Assembly: GCF_029643245.1 (NCBI RefSeq)
Contig: NZ_CP116398.1
Coordinates: 1,736,001-1,800,000 of the forward strand
Length of the DNA stretch: 64,000 nucleotides
Direction of reading: 5' to 3'
Source of the DNA: Methylomonas sp. EFPC3
Lineage (GTDB): Bacteria; Pseudomonadota; Gammaproteobacteria; Methylococcales; Methylomonadaceae
A program made the position numbers and the translations under genes. Positions 7,142 to 64,000 of the stretch are shown in pieces (position 1 is the stretch's first letter; every line of letters begins with the position of its first letter). The notes under the pieces are model-generated. The model searched no databases, was not told where the DNA came from, and worked only from the letters and a program-made list of their open reading frames with translations.

Positions 7142-8929
7142 CTATCGTGCGGCCGTTGCCGGCGATACCGGGCCGGTCAATGCTGCCTGTGGGTGGGTGG
7201 CTTTGTGCAGCGCCAAGCTTAAGCCGAAAACCAGCAGCGCCAACAGCAACGCCAATCCTTTCCAGAATGCCAGCGGGTTGCGTTCGATCAAGGGCGGCCG
7301 CGCCCGGCGTAAGAACGCCTGATTGGGTTGGCGCAAATCGTGAACGAATTCGGCGATGTCGGCGTAACGCTGGGCGGGGTCGGGATGCAAAGCCTTGCGC
7401 AGCGCATCGTCGACCCACACCGGAATCTGCGGTTGGGCGTAATGCAGGTCATCGTAACGCAATTTGGATTGCGCCTGCCGGCTACGGCATTTGGCGACTT
7501 CGGCACCGTAGGGCAAGCGGCCGCTCAACATCTGGTAGGTAATCGCGGCCAGGGAAAACAAGTCCGAACGCGGCGTGCCCTGCTCGCCCAGAAAATATTC
7601 CGGCGCCGTATATTGGGCCGTACCGAGAATGTTAAGCCCGGCCAGCTCCGGCAAGAGTTCGGCGACGCCGGCCACCCGCACCGAACCGAAATCGATGATT
7701 TTCACACCGCCGACATGGTCAATCATGACGTTCTGCGGCCGCAGGTCCTGGTGCAGCATTTCCAGACGGTGAAACGCGCGCAAGCCCTTGCCGATCTGTT
7801 CGACGATGGCCCGCACCGCTTCCAGCGCCGGTTGCGGGTGGTCCAGCATCCACTGCGCCAGGGTGCGGCCGTCGACGAATTCGGTCGCGACGTAAAGAAA
7901 ATTGCGTTTCCGGGTCGGCGGACACGGTTTTAGCACGTAAGGGCTGTCAATCCGGCGCGCAATCCAATCTTCCATCAGAAACCGTTCCAGATAGGCAGGA
8001 TCTTGGCGCAAGTCGATCGACGGCGTCTTCAGCACCACCTGGGCGCAGCTATCGTTATCGAACGCCAGATGGACGTGGCTGCGGCTGCTGACGTGCAACT
8101 CCCGGACCACGGTGTAGCCGTCGAAGTCCATCCGCTCGCGCAACTGCGGCGGCAGCGGCAACTCGGCCAAGGCCGGCAATACTTCGTCGGCTGCCGGCTG
8201 CGGCAATTGCTCGACGCGGACGATTTGCACGGTCAGGTTGTCGCCGCTGCCGGCGGCAAGCGCAGCCTCGGCCAGCGCTTTGGCGGCGACATCGAGATCG
8301 CTGCCGGCAGCGGCGATATGCTGATCGAACAACTTGACACCGGTGAATTCGTAGACGCCGTCGGTAGCCAACAGGAATAGATCGCCGTTTTCCACCGTTT
8401 CCGCCCGGTAATCGAGTTCCAGATGGCTGTCGATTCCGAGCGCCCGGCTCAAATAGCTGGTTTCCGGCGACACCCACAAGCGGTGGTCGTTGGTCAATTG
8501 CTCCCATTCGCCGCCGCGGCAGCGATAGATCCGGGCGTCGCCGACATGAAAAATATGGGCCGTGGCCGATTTGATGACCACAGCGCTGAAAGTGCAGACG
8601 TAACCGCGATCCTTGTCATAGCAATAGCGGCTGTGGCGGGTTTGCGCGTACAGCCAGGAATTGGTCGCAAACAAGACTTTTTGCGCCGATTTTTTAACCG
8701 ACCAAGCCTCGGAAGTGCAGTAATAGTCCAACAAAAACCCGGTTACCGCGGCCTGACTGGCAATATGGCTGACGTCGCTGCTGCTGATACCGTCAGCCAC
8801 GGCGAATGCGATGCCTTTTGCGCTCAATTGCGGCTCTTTCGCAACGTAAACGCCGTGGCAATCCTGATTCAGCGGCTTGCGGCCGCGGTCGGAATATTGG
8901 CCGACGCTGACGGCCAGTCGTCCGGACAT
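7142..8929 (-). CDS. PP2C phosphatase - Ser/Thr kinase fusion with C-terminal membrane anchor (copy B)
   Basis: 595 residues, same architecture as copy A at 3515-5245: PP2C domain (residues 1-245; LNQDCHGVY, VADGISSSD, HVGDARIYRC, ATDGVYEF, GSGDNLTV), kinase domain (about 270-545; VVLK lysine, HQDLRPQN catalytic loop, IDFGSVR, YTAPEY) and one C-terminal hydrophobic helix. As in copy A the ATP glycine loop is replaced (LHVSSRSHVH). The two copies are clearly homologous along their whole length but diverged, so this is an old duplication. The gene starts 18 bp after the cyanase stop and ends 28 bp before narK, so it is translationally close to both. Predicted to act at the inner membrane on the transporter or its regulators (inference from context). 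Confidence 0.92.
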   Translation of the reverse strand: MSGRLAVSVGQYSDRGRKPLNQDCHGVYVAKEPQLSAKGIAFAVADGISSSDVSHIASQAAVTGFLLDYYCTSEAWSVKKSAQKVLFATNSWLYAQTRHSRYCYDKDRGYVCTFSAVVIKSATAHIFHVGDARIYRCRGGEWEQLTNDHRLWVSPETSYLSRALGIDSHLELDYRAETVENGDLFLLATDGVYEFTGVKLFDQHIAAAGSDLDVAAKALAEAALAAGSGDNLTVQIVRVEQLPQPAADEVLPALAELPLPPQLRERMDFDGYTVVRELHVSSRSHVHLAFDNDSCAQVVLKTPSIDLRQDPAYLERFLMEDWIARRIDSPYVLKPCPPTRKRNFLYVATEFVDGRTLAQWMLDHPQPALEAVRAIVEQIGKGLRAFHRLEMLHQDLRPQNVMIDHVGGVKIIDFGSVRVAGVAELLPELAGLNILGTAQYTAPEYFLGEQGTPRSDLFSLAAITYQMLSGRLPYGAEVAKCRSRQAQSKLRYDDLHYAQPQIPVWVDDALRKALHPDPAQRYADIAEFVHDLRQPNQAFLRRARPPLIERNPLAFWKGLALLLALLVFGLSLALHKATHPQAALTGPVSPATAAR

Positions 8930-54174: not shown

Positions 54175-54615
54175 ATGAACCGTTTCACCCTGCTGCATTT
54201 GACCGCCTTGCTGATCGGCGGCAGCCTGCTCGGCGCCTGCTCGTTTTCGACCAGTTCGGAAAGCGCGTTCGACAGCTCGAAAGCCTTGTTCAACAGTGCT
54301 TCCAGCCCGTTCAAGTCCAGTTCCGATTCCTCGGGCGACGCCAAGGAAAAATACGAGGCAGACGTCGCCGATTACACGGCCGATTTCGTGGTCAGCTCCA
54401 GCGGCACGCTGGACAGCTTTCGCACCCGCTTGAGCGAACTCGCGGAAAACCACGGCATCACCGATTGGGAGAACGACCGCTACACCTACCTCGGCATCGG
54501 CCGCGGCCTGCGCAAAGCCAAGCTCGGCAAGCCGCAAATCTCGGCGTTCACGGAAAGCCTGAGCCGTAACGATCCGATGAAAAAACAAGCCATCGAAGAC
54601 GGCCTGAAAAAATAA
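54175..54615 (+). CDS. Small putative lipoprotein
   Basis: 146 residues from ATG 54175 (GGAGGG upstream). Lipobox LLGAC (Cys 22) then a Ser-rich linker (about 23-60) and a helical globular part. Family not recognised with certainty; conserved gammaproteobacterial lipoproteins of this build exist. 12 bp upstream of the DUF4105 gene, so co-transcribed. Confidence 0.75.
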   Translation: MNRFTLLHLTALLIGGSLLGACSFSTSSESAFDSSKALFNSASSPFKSSSDSSGDAKEKYEADVADYTADFVVSSSGTLDSFRTRLSELAENHGITDWENDRYTYLGIGRGLRKAKLGKPQISAFTESLSRNDPMKKQAIEDGLKK

Positions 54616-54627
54616 CCGGACCCCGCC

Positions 54628-56508
54628 ATGCGGCAGCGTGCGCGCTTGCTTTTCGGCCGCTGGCTGGTTAGCGCGCTACTGGCGGTCGCGGCCGGATCGG
54701 TCGCCGGCGCCAGTTTCGACTTTTTGTACATCGAAGCCAACGAGGGCAACGCCAGCGGCGGCCACGCCGCACTCCGCTTCGGCGACCGGGTCTACCATTT
54801 CCAGCACGTCGAACCGGGCTTGTTACGGCTGTACCGCGACGACTTCGCCGCGTTCCGCTTCGCTTATGCCGACCAGCAGAACCGCACCCTGCACGGCCAC
54901 CGCATCGAAGTCGCCGACGCCTACTACCAAGCCTTGCAGGAGACTTTCGATCGCCGGCTGGCGCAACAAAATCGCGAACTCAGCCTGTTGCGCGCGTTAC
55001 AGGAAGACGCCGATCTGAGCCGCGATTTGTACGATTCGGAGCAGGTTCCGCAACTGCGTCTGCGGGCGCTGGGCTATTTTCTGGAAGAGTATCGGGCTGC
55101 ACCGATTCCGGCTGCGGCCGCAGGCGGCGAAAGTCCCGAGCTGGCGGCATTGCGCTCGATGGCGCTGCAAAGCTACGGCCCGGATTTTCTAGCGCAAAAA
55201 CGCCGGGACCTATGGCAGGAGTTGTCGACGCTGGCACCGGACGATTTGGCGCAAGCGAGCGCTTCGGTCCCGCCGGCCGATCGTTTGACTTTCGCCCAGC
55301 AATACAAAAACCGCTTGCTGAACCTGACCGCGCTCGACCTGCTGCTGGCCGGCAAGTCGCCGCGGGCCGATGCGTTATTGACCCTGAGTGGCGCGCATTA
55401 CCGGCTGAGCCAAGCGCAGCAAAACGCACTCATCCAATATCGGGACCAAACCCGCACCGATCTGCTCCGGCTGCTGCACAGCGAACGGCCGGACTGGGGT
55501 TATCCGTTGTTGGTGGGCATGGCCCGGCTGCACGCCCTGCAGCAATCCTTGGCCGGCGGCTATCTGACGGTGCTGGATCGGCGCGCCGCCGACGCCGACC
55601 CGTATGCACCGGCCGTGGACCTGCCGACCGCGCTGCAGTATTCCCGGCAATTATTGAGCGCCGCCAACGCCCCATTGGCTGCGGCGCAAGCGCTCGACGA
55701 ACGTAGCTATGCCACGATCGAACACGGCGCGAATGCGGTATTCGCCTTGGAACGCGCCGAACGGGAACAACAAGCCGTCGCCCTACCCCGCTTCAGCAAT
55801 ACGCCCGACAAATCCGCGCCGGCGGACTGGCCCCGGCCACCGCTGCCGGCAGCGACAGCCGAGGCTTACCGCGCCGGAGCCGGCGCCCGCTTGGCAGATT
55901 ACCGCCGGCAATTGTTCGAGCGCTACGCTTATCATCTAGTGCAGCGCAATTGCGTGACCGAAATCTTTCAGTTGCTGAATGCGACCGCCGCCGCGCAAGC
56001 GTCGGCCACAGTCGATGCATCCGACCTGGCGACGCTATCCGAGCAGGCGCTGGGCGCTTATCTGGACGGCGAATTTCCGCATCCGATTCCGTTCGTGGCC
56101 TTCGACCGGGTCGGCGAACGCTACCGCACCGTTGCCAGTTACCAACTGCCCGCCTACCGCGACCGGCAGATTCGGGAGCGTTACCGGACCGCGCCGGATT
56201 GGTGGGTGGATCTACAGGAATCGAACAGCTTGACCTCGACGCTGTACCGCTGGCAAGGCAGCGACGCCGCCTTCGTGTTTTTCACCCAGGACGCGGTCTG
56301 GCCGCGGCCGTTGCAAGGCGGCATCAATCTGGCGGCAGCGGCGCTGGAAACCGGATTCGGCCTGCTGAGCTGGCCGTGGGACGCCGGGCAACACCTGGCA
56401 AAAGGCATGAAAGGCTGGGCTGTGAGTCTGCCTGAGTTGGTGTTTTTTAACATTCGCAAGGGCTCGTTTCCGCATTTGTTGCCGGACGTAACCGCACCCA
56501 ACAACTGA
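54628..56508 (+). CDS. DUF4105 (Lnb-N-like) exported protein
   Basis: 626 residues. N-terminal membrane anchor or signal, then the DUF4105 motif 'ASGGHAALRFGDRVYHFQ' (His about 46) and, later, 'AYHLVQRNCVTEIFQLLN' (Cys about 439), the conserved His and Cys that suggest a papain-like hydrolase of the Lnb N-terminal family, which includes lipoprotein N-acyltransferases. Ends with a hydrophobic stretch ('GGINLAAAALETGFGLLSWP'). Likely periplasmic. Preceded by a lipoprotein gene in the same operon, which is consistent with, but does not prove, a lipoprotein-related role. Confidence 0.8.
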   Translation: MRQRARLLFGRWLVSALLAVAAGSVAGASFDFLYIEANEGNASGGHAALRFGDRVYHFQHVEPGLLRLYRDDFAAFRFAYADQQNRTLHGHRIEVADAYYQALQETFDRRLAQQNRELSLLRALQEDADLSRDLYDSEQVPQLRLRALGYFLEEYRAAPIPAAAAGGESPELAALRSMALQSYGPDFLAQKRRDLWQELSTLAPDDLAQASASVPPADRLTFAQQYKNRLLNLTALDLLLAGKSPRADALLTLSGAHYRLSQAQQNALIQYRDQTRTDLLRLLHSERPDWGYPLLVGMARLHALQQSLAGGYLTVLDRRAADADPYAPAVDLPTALQYSRQLLSAANAPLAAAQALDERSYATIEHGANAVFALERAEREQQAVALPRFSNTPDKSAPADWPRPPLPAATAEAYRAGAGARLADYRRQLFERYAYHLVQRNCVTEIFQLLNATAAAQASATVDASDLATLSEQALGAYLDGEFPHPIPFVAFDRVGERYRTVASYQLPAYRDRQIRERYRTAPDWWVDLQESNSLTSTLYRWQGSDAAFVFFTQDAVWPRPLQGGINLAAAALETGFGLLSWPWDAGQHLAKGMKGWAVSLPELVFFNIRKGSFPHLLPDVTAPNN

Positions 56509-56619
56509 ACAGACGAACGAAGCCATCGGCCTGCGTTGATTGATGTTAGTGTCGGCAGAATTGAGACAAGACGCCAAACCGGGTGGACTAAAAGTGAATG
56601 GATTCGCTGGATAGTCATC

Positions 56620-56931
56620 GCAGCCTGATGGCGGACTATGGTCGATGATTTTTGTCCAGCAAATCCAGTAAGGCGCGATCCTCGATTAAGCGCCTGATTT
56701 TATTAACCCGGCCCTTAAATAACGTTCGCCCTGAACCTGTCGAAGGGCCGGCCCAGGCTGGTACTCGCCACTGAGCATTTCCCGCTGCAAGCCTAGCAAC
56801 TCGGATTCCAGGCGTAATTCAAACGCCGCCACCGGCGGGCGTTGTCGTTTACCGCGCCGTGCCTTACGAAACGCCAGCAACAAATTATCGAAGCTGACAA
56901 CGCGCTGCCATAGTCCGCCCAGGCGTTTCAT
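56620..56931 (-). pseudogene. Diversity-generating-retroelement reverse transcriptase, gutted remnant
   Basis: Starts at ATG 56931, overlapping the Avd-like stop by 4 bases. The first 72 residues match the DGR RT N terminus (MKRLGGLWQRVVSFDNLL, then LELQREMLSGEYQPGP; middle omitted). Then a 44-bp hairpin (56708-56751) replaces everything up to a fragment in another frame, KIRRLIEDRALLDLLDKIIDHS (in two parts: KIRRLIEDRALLDLLD + KIIDHS), which follows motif A in such RTs. The fragment itself needs a one-base correction in the A5 tract at 56649-56653. The catalytic YxDD motif, the fingers and thumb are gone. No function can remain in cis. Confidence 0.75.
56708..56751. repeat. 44-bp hairpin element inside the RT remnant
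   Basis: Arms CCGGCCCTT (56708-56716) and AAGGGCCGG (56743-56751) enclose 'GTTCGCCCTGAACCTGTCG', a REP-type core familiar from proteobacterial intergenic repeats. It sits exactly at the deletion junction in the RT gene. Confidence 0.6.
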
Positions 56932-57278
56932 GTCAGGCGCTGCTCTACAGATCGCAACCAACCGCCCAATTGTCGACCCAAATCATCCAACAAGCGGGCG
57001 CCATGCTCGTACTGGCGCAAGGCCACCGTACGCAATTCGAAGGCCAGCCGCCATAAATGCTTGACCACTTCCAGGCGCAGATTGGCTTTGTGCAAGGCGG
57101 CGCGTTTGTTGTGGGTGAAGGCGGCTTCCACGGTCAATTCCAACACTTCCAGCAATACCAACTCCAGACGCTCGCCCAGGGTAAAGCGGCGCACCCGCGG
57201 AAATTTGTCGATCTGCGGAATCAGCCAACCCAGTAAATCATGGGCGGCCTGCACCGCCTGCGGCGTATTGTCTTTCAT
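56928..57278 (-). CDS. Avd-like DGR accessory protein (four-helix bundle)
   Basis: 116 residues, all-helical, strongly basic in the second half (FTHNKRAALHKANLRLEVVK, then LWRLAFELRTVALRQYEHGA). The pattern and position, between a variable lectin-fold gene and a DGR RT, match the accessory variability determinant (Avd), a pentameric barrel that binds RT and RNA. GGGGGTAGG precedes the ATG. The stop overlaps the RT start (ATGA). Intact although the RT is destroyed. Confidence 0.82.
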   Translation of the reverse strand: MKDNTPQAVQAAHDLLGWLIPQIDKFPRVRRFTLGERLELVLLEVLELTVEAAFTHNKRAALHKANLRLEVVKHLWRLAFELRTVALRQYEHGARLLDDLGRQLGGWLRSVEQRLT

Positions 57279-57302
57279 GGGCCTACCCCCAGGAAAATTT
57301 TG

Positions 57303-57324
57303 TTGCGGGCCTATCGGCCCGCAA
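57303..57324 (-). promoter_or_regulatory. Hairpin downstream of the variable region (DGR target-site-like)
   Basis: TTGCGGGCC - loop - GGCCCGCAA, a perfect 9-bp GC-rich stem. On the coding (minus) strand the four-base loop is GATA, fitting the GRNA tetraloop of hairpins found just after the variable repeat in phage-type DGRs, where the cruciform is needed for retrohoming. It lies 30 bp past the stop of the lectin-fold gene. It could also act as a transcription attenuator. Confidence 0.5.
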
Positions 57325-57353
57325 CCAAGGGAAAAAGTACAAAGCTCAAAGGG

Positions 57354-59450
57354 CTAAGGGTCCTGGGCGAGACGAAAGCCAAGGATGTCGTCCCGGCCGC
57401 CCGGGTAGAAACCGCCGCGGAAGGCCGCGCGGAGGTACGCCGGTCCGTCGAACCAGGAACCGCCGCGGATCACGCGCTGACTACAATCGTCGCTATTGGC
57501 TTCAGACCAAACCGAACCATCAACCGGTGCGTCTTCATAGTCGCCATGCCAGCAGTCCTGGGTCCATTCCAACACATTGCCGAGCATGTCGTTTAGAGCA
57601 AACGCGTTCGCAAGAAAACTACCCACCGGCGCTGTAAAAGGAAAGTCATCATCACAAGTAAAGGGTTTCCAACTCTCAATTAACTCTCTGACACTGGCAA
57701 GCTGCTTTTCATCCATGCCAGGCGATTTGAGTTGGGCCAGTAAAAAATCCTTTATTTCCCGTTCATGGCGGCGATCAAAGACATTAGCGTTGAGACATGA
57801 GGCATCGTCACGGCCCGGCCATGGCCGGGCCGTTTGGCTACCCGCGCGGGCCGCATATTCCCACTCAGCTTCCGACGGCAAGCGGTAGTGTTTGCCGGTG
57901 TTTTTTGACAGCCATTCGGCGAAGCATTGCGCATTCCGCCAACTGACGTTGATCACCGGCCGTTTGCCGCGCCCCCAGCCTTCATCTTTTGCCCGTTCGA
58001 CTTGGTGGCCATCGCGGCAACCGCCGTCAAAGTCGATCAGAAAGGCAAATACATCGTACTCATCGAAAGTCACTTCAAATTTACCCAACGCAAAACGACG
58101 GATATTGACTTCATGCCGCGGCCCTTCGTTCGATGAACGATCTGGCTCGTCTTCCGGCGAACCGATCAGAAAGTGCCCCGCCGGAATTTCCCGCATCTCG
58201 GGTTCTGGATAGGCAATACCCAAAAATGCCAGCACAATTGCAGTGCCCACCCGGGCAGACAGTTGCTGCGAACCTATCCACCATCCGAACACAATGGCCG
58301 CAATCAGGGCAGAGGCAAGAGTACCGCGCTGTATCCAGCGCGGCGGTTGCAAGCTTTTAATCCAACGGGCATCAAAGACTTTTTGATAAATCCGGTTTCG
58401 AATCGCCAGCCTACCACTGTCATCGGTTTTAACCAGGCCGGATAGTTTCAGCGCGGCATGAATGGGCGACTGTGGCTGGTCTTGAATTGGCTTGCCTTTG
58501 AGTACCTTGGCATAGACCTTGAGGATGGCGGCGCGTCGCGAGGCCTGGGCGATGCGTTCGTTAATGACCTTAAGGTGTTCTTGCTTGGTGCGGCGGGCAA
58601 TACCAAAAAATTCCGCCGCGACCAGTTGGTCAATGAAGTCGTTTACAGACATATGCGGGCTGGTTGTTTTTCCGGCCAATAAGCATAAATGCTGAGTCAG
58701 AAAAGGATGGCCTCCGGTCCAACACAGAATCCTTTGCAAGGTTGCCTGCTTCTGACTCGCCTCCCCAGGCAATCCTTCCAGGAATAGGCTGGCTTCGTCG
58801 TCGCGAAAATCCGTCAAATCAATACGTTTACCGATATTGAATGGCGTACGGCTTTGGTCGCGAATCAAATCGGCCGGGCTGGCGACCCCCAACAACACAA
58901 ACGTCAAATTATTGAAGCGGCCGTCGTTGGCTCTGGCGTTAAAACAGGCGCGAATCGCGGCAAAGAAATCATCGCTGAACAATAGGTTGATGGTGGTATC
59001 GATTTCATCGAAGAATAAAAATACTCGGCCTGCCAGACTCGACAAAATGCCTTCCTCGAAGAAATTCATCAGCCGTTGCAACGGTGACAATAAGGTTTGC
59101 TGTTGCCACCAATCGGACAAACTGAAATTCAGTTTAAGTTCTTTATTCAAGCGATGGCAAAGGCTGTAGTACCACTGATCAGCGGTAATCGAATTGGCAT
59201 CACCGCCAACGCCGCTGAGATCAACCACCGCCACGTGATGGCCCTCTTTGCGCAAGCGGGCGGCAGTATGGGTCATCAGGCTGGATTTGCCCATTTGCCG
59301 TGGAGTCAATACGTAACAGAATTCACTGGCTAAAAGACTGTCGTAGAGTTCCTGATCCGCGCGACGTTCGATGTAGCTGGGAACATCGGCTTTTAAGGTC
59401 CCCCCAGCTTGGTAGAAACCGTTTTTGGTTAATGTATCGTTTTCGCTCAT
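57354..59450 (-). CDS. AAA NTPase - transmembrane - FGE/C-type-lectin protein (probable DGR target)
   Basis: 698 residues from ATG 59450, overlapping the TIR gene stop (ATGA). Residues 1-360: AAA-like (AAA_35-type) NTPase with Walker A TPRQMGKSS (49-57) and Walker B VFLFFDEID (143-151). Residues about 377-415: two hydrophobic stretches. Residues about 417-698: formylglycine-generating-enzyme/C-type-lectin fold (IPAGHFLIGS, RLPSEAEWEYAARAG, DMLGNVLEW, RVIRGGSW, GFRLA). The last 30 residues are the classic DGR variable segment, rich in F/D/Y/G at the sites that are usually Asn in templates. It probably senses an external ligand and signals through the NTPase. Catalytic FGE Cys residues are not evident, so a binding role is favoured. 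Confidence 0.88.
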   Translation of the reverse strand: MSENDTLTKNGFYQAGGTLKADVPSYIERRADQELYDSLLASEFCYVLTPRQMGKSSLMTHTAARLRKEGHHVAVVDLSGVGGDANSITADQWYYSLCHRLNKELKLNFSLSDWWQQQTLLSPLQRLMNFFEEGILSSLAGRVFLFFDEIDTTINLLFSDDFFAAIRACFNARANDGRFNNLTFVLLGVASPADLIRDQSRTPFNIGKRIDLTDFRDDEASLFLEGLPGEASQKQATLQRILCWTGGHPFLTQHLCLLAGKTTSPHMSVNDFIDQLVAAEFFGIARRTKQEHLKVINERIAQASRRAAILKVYAKVLKGKPIQDQPQSPIHAALKLSGLVKTDDSGRLAIRNRIYQKVFDARWIKSLQPPRWIQRGTLASALIAAIVFGWWIGSQQLSARVGTAIVLAFLGIAYPEPEMREIPAGHFLIGSPEDEPDRSSNEGPRHEVNIRRFALGKFEVTFDEYDVFAFLIDFDGGCRDGHQVERAKDEGWGRGKRPVINVSWRNAQCFAEWLSKNTGKHYRLPSEAEWEYAARAGSQTARPWPGRDDASCLNANVFDRRHEREIKDFLLAQLKSPGMDEKQLASVRELIESWKPFTCDDDFPFTAPVGSFLANAFALNDMLGNVLEWTQDCWHGDYEDAPVDGSVWSEANSDDCSQRVIRGGSWFDGPAYLRAAFRGGFYPGGRDDILGFRLAQDP
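57372..57455 (-). repeat. Probable DGR variable region (VR)
   Basis: 28 codons between RGGSW and GFRLA. Codons at the diversified positions are TTC, GAC, GGC, TAC and similar (NNC), as produced when template AAC codons are mutagenised, while intervening LR, R and P positions are conserved. No matching template repeat with AAC runs was found in this window. Confidence 0.6.
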
Positions 59451-61801
59451 AAGTGTTGGCGGAAATACGCTTCGTAAAGATGGCAACGCAAACGTGCGTC
59501 ATGACGGGTTTCACCTTTCACCACACCGGCAGCAACCAGGCGTTGGAATGCAGCTTCGTCATCACAGGGTTTGTCTTGTAGAATTTGCAATACCGCCGTG
59601 CGCAATGCCTCCCGTTGACTAATCACACTGACCAAGCGGCGCAGATGGTCGCCAAACGGACCATTGGAACGGGGAGCATTTTCTCTAAACGAATCCCACC
59701 CCTTGGTGACGATTTCGTAAAGCGCCTGCCTGCTCAGGTAGGGTTGGCCGCCTATCAGCGCATGCAATTCATTTATTTCATTCCCGGCTAGATTTAGGCC
59801 GTAACGCTGGCTGAGTTCGAGGAGTTGCGCGCGACTAAAATCCTCCAAATTTACGGCATCGCCAACGTTGAAGGGGGATTGCGTGATATCGTCGATCCAC
59901 AGCACCGGATCGGTGGAATGGGCAATGACCAAGCTGAAACGTTCCCAGTCCGGTTTATAAGCCCGCCGTGTGGTCCAGGAACGCAACAACCCAAAAAAAT
60001 CGTTGCGGTAGCCATATTGAAAGACTCGGTCCGCTTCGTCCAGAAACAGAATCACCTCGGAGTCCTGATCGGCGAGCACGGCGTCTTCGATAAAATCGGT
60101 CGCGCAGTCCTTTGAACCCAGATTATCGTCCCAATAATCCGATGGTTTGCGAGGTGTTTTTAAATCACGCGCCATTCGGATGGTCAGATAAAGCAACAAG
60201 TTATCCAATGTAGCCAAACGTGCTTCGTCGATGGCTTGAAAGTCGATGGAGCACACCCGTTTTCCCTGATTTTTGGCTTGAACCGCGGCTCTGACCAATA
60301 AGGAGCTTTTGCCCATCTGCCTGGCACCTTTAACAATAACGGTAGTGCCGGTTCGGCTGAGAAAACGTTCTATGTTCTGATCTGCTTGACGTCGTAAGTA
60401 AAACTGGGAATCAAGCCGCATGGCACCTTTTTCCAATGCCAATTCAAGTAGTCTCGGATCAACCTGGGGTAAGGGGGCGCCGCATTCCTCTGTAATGGCA
60501 TGTAATTTTCTTATTTGATCAGCACCATCCGGCTCGTCGGCAATGTGTCCAGCTTGGGGTAGATTTGTGTTTTGGCGAATAGCTTGTTTAATCGATGCTA
60601 CAACATCTGAAGTCGCGTGTTCGCCGGTCCAGACTGCATATTGCAAAGGATTTAAATAACCGCCCAGATCGTAAGGCAACGCGCCGGTAAAGCGAATACG
60701 CACCGGCAATATGCGTAGTTTACCCAACTGTCGGAGTTGATGAGCCAGCATGATTTCCTGCCTCACCATGTCGCTACGAATCGAATCCGCCGACAACAGG
60801 ACGATGAAGATGTCTGCGGCACGCAGGCGCCGGTCGATTTCTGTCGCCCAGTCCGTACCGAGCAACATCCGGCGATCAACAAAAACCTGTTGCCCGTCCG
60901 CTACTAAGGCCTTTTCCAACTCAAGCGCCAAATCTTCATCGGGCTTGGTATGCCTGTAGCTGATAAATATCTGTTTGCTAGTGTTTGATGCATCAGTTGG
61001 TTGATCCTGAGTGTCGGTTGATGACAAAGGTCGTGGCGCGAATTTTTCCAGAAAAGCCAATAGTAAGCGATGCTGAACGGCTTGCGCGTCGGCAGGTTTG
61101 GCGATGGAAAAATGATCGGAGCCGGGTACTTTGTAAGGCTCACCGAAATTACGGGCACCGGCAAACGGCTCAACCACTTGTTTGCGCAACAAGCCTGGAA
61201 GTAATACAAATTTGTCTTCGATCAGTTCCTTACCGACTAGCTGCAGCCGACCGGATTCCTTGAGATTGCGGAACTCCTTATCAAGACCGTTGAGCCAACT
61301 GTTTTGCTGGGTAAAGCGCAAGGCGTCGGCTTGGGTATGCCCGAGCAACTTAGCTAATGGCGCCAGCCAATTGGCGTAATCTGAGCCCATTGAAGGTGAG
61401 GCGACCAGAAAGAATCCAACTTCGATATTCCGATCGAGAAGGTCGTTGACGCGCTCAACCAGAAATTTGCGAGCCACGATACCGCCCATGCTGTGGCAAA
61501 CGAACACGATCCGCCGATGTTTGGCTAAATGGTCAAGATTTAAGAAGCGTTCTTTCAGGTCATCAACCACGTCGTTCAGACTATAGGTTCCGCTGAAAAA
61601 CCCGGTTTGGTAGCTGTAAACGTAAATGCCCCAGCCGTTGGCGGCATCGGTCTGCTTCAGCAATTCGGGCCAATAACTGCCGTTTTGATGTTTCCAACAG
61701 GTTTCGCCGCTGGATAATATGCCGTGCACAAACACCACTGCAGCATCGCTGTCTGGCTTTCGAACCCAATCCCCTTGCACAATCACCTCCGCTAAATCCA
61801 T
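59447..61801 (-). CDS. Alpha/beta-hydrolase - TIR - AAA NTPase fusion
   Basis: 784 residues. 1-255: alpha/beta-hydrolase of lipase/PGAP1 type with HG oxyanion motif (VFVHGILS), nucleophile Ser 104 in CHSMGG and a likely His 230 in GSDHFSI. 276-410: TIR domain (KQIFISYRH, then 'WATEIDRRLRAADIFIVLLS' and Glu 349 in RQEIMLAH, the position of the NADase Glu). 465-784: AAA_35-like NTPase with Walker A GARQMGKSS (492-500) and Walker B VILFLDEAD (583-591), related to the NTPase of the next gene. Two potential effectors (lipase-like and NADase-like) on one NTPase switch is typical of bacterial conflict (anti-phage or altruistic) proteins. First gene of the operon; stop overlaps the next start by 4 bases. 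Confidence 0.9.
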   Translation of the reverse strand: MDLAEVIVQGDWVRKPDSDAAVVFVHGILSSGETCWKHQNGSYWPELLKQTDAANGWGIYVYSYQTGFFSGTYSLNDVVDDLKERFLNLDHLAKHRRIVFVCHSMGGIVARKFLVERVNDLLDRNIEVGFFLVASPSMGSDYANWLAPLAKLLGHTQADALRFTQQNSWLNGLDKEFRNLKESGRLQLVGKELIEDKFVLLPGLLRKQVVEPFAGARNFGEPYKVPGSDHFSIAKPADAQAVQHRLLLAFLEKFAPRPLSSTDTQDQPTDASNTSKQIFISYRHTKPDEDLALELEKALVADGQQVFVDRRMLLGTDWATEIDRRLRAADIFIVLLSADSIRSDMVRQEIMLAHQLRQLGKLRILPVRIRFTGALPYDLGGYLNPLQYAVWTGEHATSDVVASIKQAIRQNTNLPQAGHIADEPDGADQIRKLHAITEECGAPLPQVDPRLLELALEKGAMRLDSQFYLRRQADQNIERFLSRTGTTVIVKGARQMGKSSLLVRAAVQAKNQGKRVCSIDFQAIDEARLATLDNLLLYLTIRMARDLKTPRKPSDYWDDNLGSKDCATDFIEDAVLADQDSEVILFLDEADRVFQYGYRNDFFGLLRSWTTRRAYKPDWERFSLVIAHSTDPVLWIDDITQSPFNVGDAVNLEDFSRAQLLELSQRYGLNLAGNEINELHALIGGQPYLSRQALYEIVTKGWDSFRENAPRSNGPFGDHLRRLVSVISQREALRTAVLQILQDKPCDDEAAFQRLVAAGVVKGETRHDARLRCHLYEAYFRQHL

Positions 61802-61946
61802 CTGTTTTGGCTTATGTTATTCGAAAACGCCCAAGAACATTAAGTTGGTATCTGCTGGTTAAAACGGTACTTGTCGCATCATCGATACCGGGTTCCGGTT
61901 CGCCTTTGGGGGTGACGAAAATCTTTACCTCGTCATCAATCCCCCT

Positions 61947-61976
61947 TTGCCCAAGCCCCGGCATTCCCCGTATAGT
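61947..61976 (+). promoter_or_regulatory. Possible uvrA promoter with degenerate LexA-like box downstream
   Basis: TTGCCC (61947-61952), 18-base spacer, TATAGT (61971-61976) upstream of uvrA. CTGT-N8-CCAG at 61983-61998 is one base off the CTGT-N8-ACAG LexA box and would overlap the start of transcription. Weak by itself. Confidence 0.3.
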
Positions 61977-62010
61977 ATCCGGCTGTTAAAAATCCCAGGA
62001 CTTTACCGCA

Positions 62011-64000
62011 GTGGACACCATCAGCATACGCGGCGCCCGCACCCATAATCTGAAAAACATCGACCTCGACCTGCCGCGCGACAAATTGATCGTCATCACC
62101 GGCCTGTCCGGTTCCGGCAAGTCGTCGCTGGCCTTCGATACCATTTATGCCGAGGGCCAGCGCCGCTACGTCGAGTCGTTGTCGGCCTATGCCCGCCAAT
62201 TTTTGTCGATGATGGAAAAGCCGGACGTCGACCATATCGAAGGCCTGTCACCGGCGATTTCGATCGAGCAAAAATCCACCTCGCACAATCCGCGTTCGAC
62301 AGTCGGCACCATCACCGAGATTTACGATTATCTGCGGCTGCTGTATGCCCGGGTCGGCATTCCACGCTGCCCGGAGCATGGCGTGTCGCTGCAGGCGCAG
62401 ACCGTCAGCCAGATGGTCGATCAGGTGCTGGCGCAGCCGGAAGGCGAGCGCTGGATGCTGCTGGCGCCGGTGATTAACGATCGCAAGGGCGAGCACGTCT
62501 TATTGCTGGAAGACTTGAAGGCGCAAGGCTTTTTGCGCGCCCGCATCGACGGCGAAGTCTACGAACTGGACGAACCGCCAGCCCTGGATTTAAAGAAAAA
62601 GCACACCATCGAAGTCATCGTCGACCGCTTTAAAATCAGGGACGACATTCAGTTGCGTTTGGCCGAATCGTTCGAGACCGCGCTAAGGCTGTCGGAAGGC
62701 CTGGCGATTGCCGCGTCGATGGAAACCGATCAGCAATTGCTGTTTTCCGAGCGTTACGCCTGCCCGCACTGCGGCTACAGCCTCAGCGAGCTGGAGCCGC
62801 GCATCTTCTCGTTCAACAACCCGAAAGGCGCCTGCCCGAGTTGCGACGGCCTCGGCGTACGCCAGCATTTCGATCCGCAATTGGTGGTACACAACCCGGA
62901 CATCAGTCTGGCCGGCGGCGCTGTGCGCGGCTGGGACCGGCGTAACGCCTATTACTACCAGATCATTTGCGCGCTGGCCGCCCATTACAACTTCGATCCG
63001 GAAGCGCCATTCGCCAAGATTCCGCGCGACGTGCAAGCCATCATACTTTACGGCAGCGGCAACGAAAACATCGAGTTTCAGTTCCAGATGGGTAACGCCA
63101 AACCCAAAGTGTCGCGCCATCCGTTCGAAGGCATCATTCCCAACATGGAGCGCCGCTACCGGGAGAGCGACTCGCAAATGGTCCGCGACGAACTGGCGAA
63201 ATATCTGGCGCAACAGACCTGCTCGGTCTGCGACGGCGCCCGGCTGAACATCGGCGCCCGCAATGTGTTCGTCGAGGACCAGCCCTTGCACCATTTGACC
63301 CGGCTGCCGATCCGCGACGCCTTGCATTTTTTCCAGGCCTTGACCATCGCCGGCCACCGCGGCGAGATTGCCGCCAAAATTAACAAAGAGATTCAGGAGC
63401 GACTGGAATTTCTGGTCAACGTCGGTCTGGATTACCTGACCCTGGACCGCAGCGCCGATACGCTGTCCGGCGGCGAAGCCCAGCGCATCCGCCTCGCCTC
63501 GCAGATCGGCGCCGGCCTGGTCGGCGTGATGTATGTGCTCGACGAACCGTCGATCGGTTTACATCAACGCGACAACGAACGCCTGTTGAATACGCTGTTC
63601 AGACTGCGCGACCTCGGCAATACCGTGATCGTGGTCGAACACGACGAAGATGCGATCCGCGCCGCCGACCACATCGTCGACATCGGCCCCGGCGCCGGCG
63701 TACACGGCGGGCAGATCGTTGCGCAAGGCACGCCGGCGCAAATTCTGGCCGACGCCAACTCGCTGACCGGCCAATACCTGTCCGGCGCGGAAACCATTGC
63801 GGTACCGAACAAAACCACGCCCAACGATCCGGCCCGGCAATTAACGATCAAAGGCGCCAGCGGCAACAACCTGAAAAACGTCACGGCCAGTTTTCCGGTG
63901 GGGCTGTTGACCTGCGTCACCGGCGTGTCCGGCTCTGGCAAGTCGACCTTGATCAACGATACGCTATACAGCCATGCCGCCCGCGTCATCAACGGCGCCA
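62011..64000 (+). CDS. uvrA: Excinuclease ABC subunit A (3' end outside window)
   Basis: 663 codons from GTG 62011 to the window end; full UvrA has about 940. N-terminal [20 protein letters not shown] and Walker [10 protein letters not shown], UvrB-binding and insertion domains, zinc finger CPHCGYS ... CPSCDG, signature [13 protein letters not shown], Walker [15 protein letters not shown], and the second Walker [10 protein letters not shown] near the end. UvrA scans DNA for bulky lesions with UvrB. Divergent from the TIR operon, with 209 bp between. Confidence 0.97.

Follow-up and report, generated by a model that had tools for sequence, protein, structure and literature searches.

A degenerate diversity-generating retroelement with a probably frozen variable sensor in Methylomonas sp. 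EFPC3

In Thiohalocapsa sp. PB-PSB1, the available sections of the report describe degenerate loci of diversity-generating retroelements (DGRs) with MITE-like repeats replacing the reverse transcriptase (RT), diversification in trans and NTPase-CLec antigen sensors (Dore et al. 2024, PMC10907252). For cyanobacterial DGRs, the part of the source at hand reports remote or remnant variable proteins left without machinery (PMC7517822). As for decay, only calls of active or inactive DGRs were found in the accessible text of PMC8144416. In a limited literature collection we found no paper on a diversity-generating retroelement in Methylomonas. Here we describe a locus of Methylomonas sp. EFPC3, whose genome is one contig of 4.44 Mb (99.9% complete). 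It is very probably a degenerate DGR whose target carries a now frozen variable region (VR), with no DGR RT or template repeat (TR) found in the genome. Positions refer to the window, the whole stretch of 64,000 nucleotides of contig NZ_CP116398.1 that was analysed.

The minus-strand order is TIR effector gene, target, hairpin, avd and RT remnants. The first-pass annotation had recognised the order target, hairpin, Avd and RT as that of a DGR, and the AAA_35/FGE target, the GRNA-loop hairpin and the matches to NF033474/bAvd and phrog_1423 bear this out. The features are:

56510..61830, no strand: whole module (effector gene, sensor/target, Avd, RT remnants), missing in the same-species genome G007
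59447..61801, minus strand: putative effector, 784 aa, alpha/beta-hydrolase - TIR - AAA_35 (AAA_35 281.6 bits, TIR_2 74.3, Abhydrolase_6 41.5)
57354..59450, minus strand: DGR target, 698 aa from ATG, with an N-terminal AAA_35 ATPase and a C-terminal FGE-sulfatase (CLec-type) sensor domain
57369..57467, minus strand: VR, 33 codons RGGSW...GFRL, assigned by A-site statistics against the TR consensus of relatives
57302..57325, minus strand: hairpin of the target site with a perfect G+C-rich stem of 10 bp; its loop, GATA when read on the coding strand, fits the published GRNA loop consensus
56928..57278, minus strand: Avd accessory protein, 116 aa, reading as intact (NF033474, Pfam bAvd)
56752..56931, minus strand: RT remnant 1, residues 1-60, its ATG overlapping the Avd stop
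about 56700..56754, no strand: dispersed hairpin repeat (REP/MITE-like) at the RT deletion, with 9-bp arms
56626..56704, minus strand: RT remnant 2, matching about residues 150-175 and interrupted by a one-base slip within the T5 tract at 56649-56653

The effector stop and the target ATG overlap as ATGA, as do the Avd stop and the RT start, and therefore the module looks like one translationally coupled operon. The effector protein gave weak matches to the PADLOC TIR models. The target scored 109.3 bits with AAA_35 and 171 bits with FGE-sulfatase (run on the 710-aa frame) and has two apparent hydrophobic helices, as judged by eye. A P-loop NTPase fused to a variable CLec/FGE domain and adjoining a TIR effector is the architecture of an NTPase conflict system with a DGR-diversified antigen sensor; judging by sequence, a role in defence is putative.

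In G007 the flanks are contiguous without the 5.3-kb module, and the matches to query 1-1910 and 7231-7801 abut. The module has a GC content of 52.6%, compared with 57.0% and 59.6% in the flanks. An element with a target-site duplication was rejected, as no clean duplication could be read at the G007 junction. The stretch 54600-62400 is a variable spot: it is empty in G007, holds other genes in G002 and G004 (AMP-ligase/acyltransferase-like and neighbours, judged by eye) and the DGR module in EFPC3. Because there is no clean duplication and G002 and G004 carry other genes, insertion and loss of the module are indistinguishable.

The RGGSW...GFRLA ending of the target is common to FGE domains and alone is no proof of a VR. 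Since the locus has no TR of its own, we compared the VR with the consensus of 41 relatives' TRs. It mismatched at 17/21 conserved A sites versus 2/42 conserved non-A sites (Fisher p=8.5e-10), the A-specific pattern of a DGR, and all 11 template-Asn codons are NNC, a form that makes up 30% of the frame's first 660 codons. The VR character earlier ascribed to the C terminus is thus real because of these A-site statistics and not because of the ending. They also rule out chance or a generic FGE motif. An ordinary protein of the FGE-sulfatase type with no history as a DGR target, and with Avd and RT scraps next to it by coincidence, would account for the common ending, but the A-site statistics refute it (p about 1e-9), provided that the foreign TR consensus is appropriate. 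Moreover, the hairpin and Avd stand in the relatives' order and ATGA overlaps run along the operon, so that this explanation has next to no probability.

In comparisons with single foreign TRs, on average 79% of the A sites and 24% of the non-A sites of the VR were mismatched. If every A were replaced at random, about 16 of the 21 sites would change, and the VR looks saturated with changes. Codon-restricted variability was also sought in related targets and was found: in 35 own-locus TR-VR pairs of relatives (pairs of unequal length left out), 517/970 A sites differ versus 28/2483 non-A sites, and 20 of the 28 non-A differences are due to a single L187 pair, in which the VR may have a different template. 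Such A-only or nearly A-only differences in relatives with a full RT support reading the EFPC3 locus as a degenerate DGR. As partners for a selection test, we obtained 117 target matches in 78 of 86 loci (E<=1e-3), none starting before residue 321, so that the AAA_35 part has no partner among them; no orthologue close enough for such a test on the target was found.

Downstream of the VR lies the hairpin expected of a DGR target site. DGR target hairpins have GRNA loops and 7-10 bp stems 4-34 bp from the VR end, according to the part of PMC3240598 available, and the distance from the estimated VR end to ours is about 38 bp, slightly beyond this range. A search of the corresponding place gave no perfect stem of >=6 bp for many of the relatives. 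The accessory protein Avd is present and scored above the cut-offs of NF033474 (88.4 bits, cut-off 80) and Pfam bAvd (57.6, cut-off 40), which together with the ATGA overlap confirms the earlier view of an intact Avd overlapping the RT start. It deviates at 5/47 conserved columns; in 41 loci with a full RT the median is 1 (range 0-19). Searches for close Avd relatives on plasmids and phages gave one weak plasmid match (36.9%) and no phage match. An Avd that reads as intact is unexpected if it has long been useless, and we infer that it is a passenger or a recent leftover.

Of the 352 RT residues, 1-60 and about 150-175 are kept, so the catalytic core of a DGR RT is missing. Remnant 1 matched phrog_1423 (E=7.9e-15) and shares 70% identity with residues 1-60 of an intact DGR RT, while Pfam and NCBIfam gave no match at E<=0.01. 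This N-terminal piece of the RT aligns with DGR RTs, which speaks against its belonging to another family. Remnant 2 was weak in a plain single-frame hmmsearch (1.9 bits, equalled by 11/1000 shuffles), and its assignment rests on the frameshift-tolerant profile score of 42.9 bits, compared with a mean of 15.0 and a maximum of 21.2 in 300 dinucleotide shuffles. This score also upholds the further one-base slip noted in the first-pass annotation, as does the dispersed repeat the hairpin element at the deletion, where residues 61 to about 149 are gone. With up to 3 mismatches allowed, the repeat was found at 6 places in the genome (0 for the reversed control), and it has matches of 87-95% identity in G006, G010, G011 and G021. 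On the 3' side of remnant 2, no further RT and no TR were found. One lesion, the homopolymer slip, might on its own come from a sequencing error, which is unlikely for the deletion and the missing 3' part. An assembly or sequencing artefact hiding an intact RT and TR in the true genome would have to account for the missing TR and for two missing RT segments, of about 89 and >175 codons, as well as for the dispersed repeat that marks the break, and similar losses recur in other assemblies; we hold it to be highly improbable.

No TR was found at the locus, as had been seen before, and none in the genome by DNA or pattern search. With the VR as DNA query, the best non-self match had E=0.13, and the pattern search with up to 3 mismatches matched the VR only. 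As a sensitivity control we ran a script BLAST, with the search space set to genome size, on 37 own-locus TR-VR rows of relatives. It recovered the TR from the VR in 34/34 informative pairs, all at E<=4.6e-26; in the other three rows (L176 and two of L187) the match shown was a VR itself. The RT profile search of the genome returned this remnant (88.6 bits), a group II RT (154 bits) and a retron RT (19.5 bits), and neither it nor the RVT_1 search found a DGR RT elsewhere. The two RVT_1 matches were rejected as a group II intron RT (TIGR04416, 406.3 bits, cut-off 300) and an St85 retron RT (349.4, cut-off 235). The latter family is represented in this genome at contig positions 1166958-1167575, with its St85 effector upstream. 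There was no second Avd above cut-off, and the target's FGE domain is the sole PF03781 match in the genome. A donor acting in trans was thus found by none of the RVT_1, RT profile, Avd, DNA, 3-mismatch pattern and FGE-family searches. Therefore diversification is dead in cis, with the RT core and TR gone and the target and Avd reading as intact, as first proposed, and, barring an unassembled replicon, also in trans.

The locus could instead be a satellite target, still diversified in trans by an RT and TR elsewhere in the cell. The first-pass annotation had suggested that the target and Avd might now rely on an RT and a template at another place in the genome, and the genome-wide search for both turned up neither. 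Against such a satellite also speaks that the best of 46 foreign TR-like sequences mismatches the VR at 9/69 non-A sites. On the other hand, the target hairpin and Avd read as intact, and DGR 4/5 of Thiohalocapsa are interpreted as diversified in trans in the available sections of PMC10907252. Trans use is likely within this Avd-bearing DGR group too. The RT-less locus L097/L199 (G224:C91), with a truncated Avd, has a VR that, compared with the TR of L094 (G224:C222) from the same genome, is identical at 72/72 non-A sites and altered at 17/27 A sites. L094 has a full-length RT, and from sequence L199 is apparently diversified in trans by L094. Because of this match, some RT-less loci are likely trans targets. 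A plasmid absent from the EFPC3 assembly could carry an RT and TR, and with all this we still think continued diversification in trans improbable and prefer a frozen VR.

The BPP-1 DGR has its TR between avd and the RT gene. EFPC3-type loci differ: in 41 relatives with a full RT, the TR follows the RT in 33, lies between Avd and RT in 1 (L173, unlike most relatives), before Avd in 2 and elsewhere in 1, and none was seen in 4. Because the TR directly follows the RT in 33/41, its absence from EFPC3, where the RT core is lost as well, fits the same 3' loss as that of the RT.

The first reading had called the locus a rare snapshot, which the relatives contradict. An Avd alignment scan of contigs gave 91 relatives, of which the best 80 were kept; 7 end too soon after Avd. 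The remaining 73 assessable loci comprise 41 with a full RT ORF, 6 with the RT in pieces, 10 with an RT remnant and 16 with no RT. A remnant only or no RT was thus seen in 26/73 assessable loci from the best 80 of 91, a rough rate because the search patterns favour the Avd N-terminus; two of the ten remnants (L172, L174) are large pieces and not certainly dead. An RT search covered the genomes, many of them drafts, of 23 of the 26 loci (all but L199, L200 and L212). It found a full-length DGR-type RT elsewhere in 4/23 (G311, G312, G314 and G325; 310-552 bits), an edge-cut RT in one (G321, 423 bits) and a fragment of 169 residues in another (G313, 213 bits). Apart from the locus's own remnant, 17/23 had no RT above 160 bits; matches of 32-126 bits also occurred, and for scale the EFPC3 group II RT has 154.

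Three RT-less loci, L182, L191 (=L040) and L193, keep the TR, one or more VRs and the last ~20 RT codons before the TR, with differing left breakpoints. The L182 VR differs from its own TR at 18/30 A versus 0/69 non-A sites (a second VR was uncounted for length), the L191 VRs at 12/26 versus 0/73 and 17/26 versus 3/73, and the L193 VR at 11/29 versus 0/70. These are candidate satellite DGRs using an RT in trans. The retained C-terminal codons were rejected as a functional RNA element, as their codon conservation (0.381 versus 0.396 overall) gave no support.

Of the 37 genomes searched in this genus, EFPC3, G005 and G016 have a clear Avd, and three more matches are doubtful (29-30% identity, E 1e-4 to 9e-4). 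None of the three clear loci has an intact RT. Common to them are the genus, an Avd, whole or broken, and VR targets. In M. koyamae R-45383 (G005, L040/L191), Avd runs into the last RT codons; unlike EFPC3, it has kept a TR, here with two VRs, and a separate contig carries a further DGR RT accompanied by a TR of its own. In G016 (single contig; L041, L046), Avd, unlike that of EFPC3, is decayed. No RT scored above 69.1 bits, and a scan of two stretches gave no TR. Three VR targets are present that differ from the M. koyamae TR at just 3-4 of 73 non-A sites. G016 is likely a second frozen case.

We propose that a patchily distributed, perhaps horizontally acquired 5.3-kb operon encoded TIR effector, AAA_35/FGE sensor, Avd, RT and TR. 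As the VR pattern shows, the DGR once diversified the last 33 codons of the sensor by A-specific mutagenic retrohoming. Residues 61 to about 149 of the RT were then lost, with the dispersed hairpin repeat now at the break, and so was everything from about residue 176 through the TR, if the TR stood where it does in relatives. With no DGR RT or TR found in the genome, the VR is very probably frozen. Because the element's enzyme core and template are gone, the sensor is most likely fixed now, and the sensor-effector pair, which reads as intact, probably still works as a fixed receptor.

Loss of RT and template may be a recurrent, perhaps selected end state, in which a DGR serves to find a good receptor and afterwards disappears, so that a fixed immune-type sensor stays behind. 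The 26 loci with a remnant or no RT among the 73 (from the best 80 of 91), and the 17 of 23 genomes, many of them drafts, without another RT above 160 bits are the basis for this suggestion, which we put forward tentatively and consider rather doubtful. If true, 'randomise, select, freeze' would be a route to new innate receptors. The EFPC3 locus, in a single-contig genome, is a clean natural example of a bacterial hypervariable sensor separated from its mutator, and thus allows the question whether selection continues to act on a receptor once it is frozen. Many DGR surveys start from the RT. RT-less DGR remains are common in this Avd-bearing group, and RT-first surveys would therefore miss many targets that are, or once were, diversified.

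Loci of this kind are already known from Thiohalocapsa sp. PB-PSB1, and, measured against the available sections of that work, what is new here is an orphan case in whose genome no complete DGR was found, together with a rough frequency (PMC10907252). Both keep a CLec/FGE target with its VR while RT or TR is missing or pseudogenised, and both have MITE-like repeats in the place of the RT and an NTPase/TIR conflict-system neighbourhood. The Thiohalocapsa genome retains one complete DGR locus for each class, whereas none of the same class was found elsewhere in EFPC3. With the BPP-1 DGR, the EFPC3 locus shares Avd and a GC-rich hairpin with a GRNA loop downstream of the VR, as far as the accessible text goes (PMC3240598). 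With the cyanobacterial all3226, as presented in the part of the source at hand, it has in common a variable protein with remnant TR-VR homology and no RT nearby; unlike those remnants, EFPC3 still has Avd and two RT fragments beside the target (PMC7517822).
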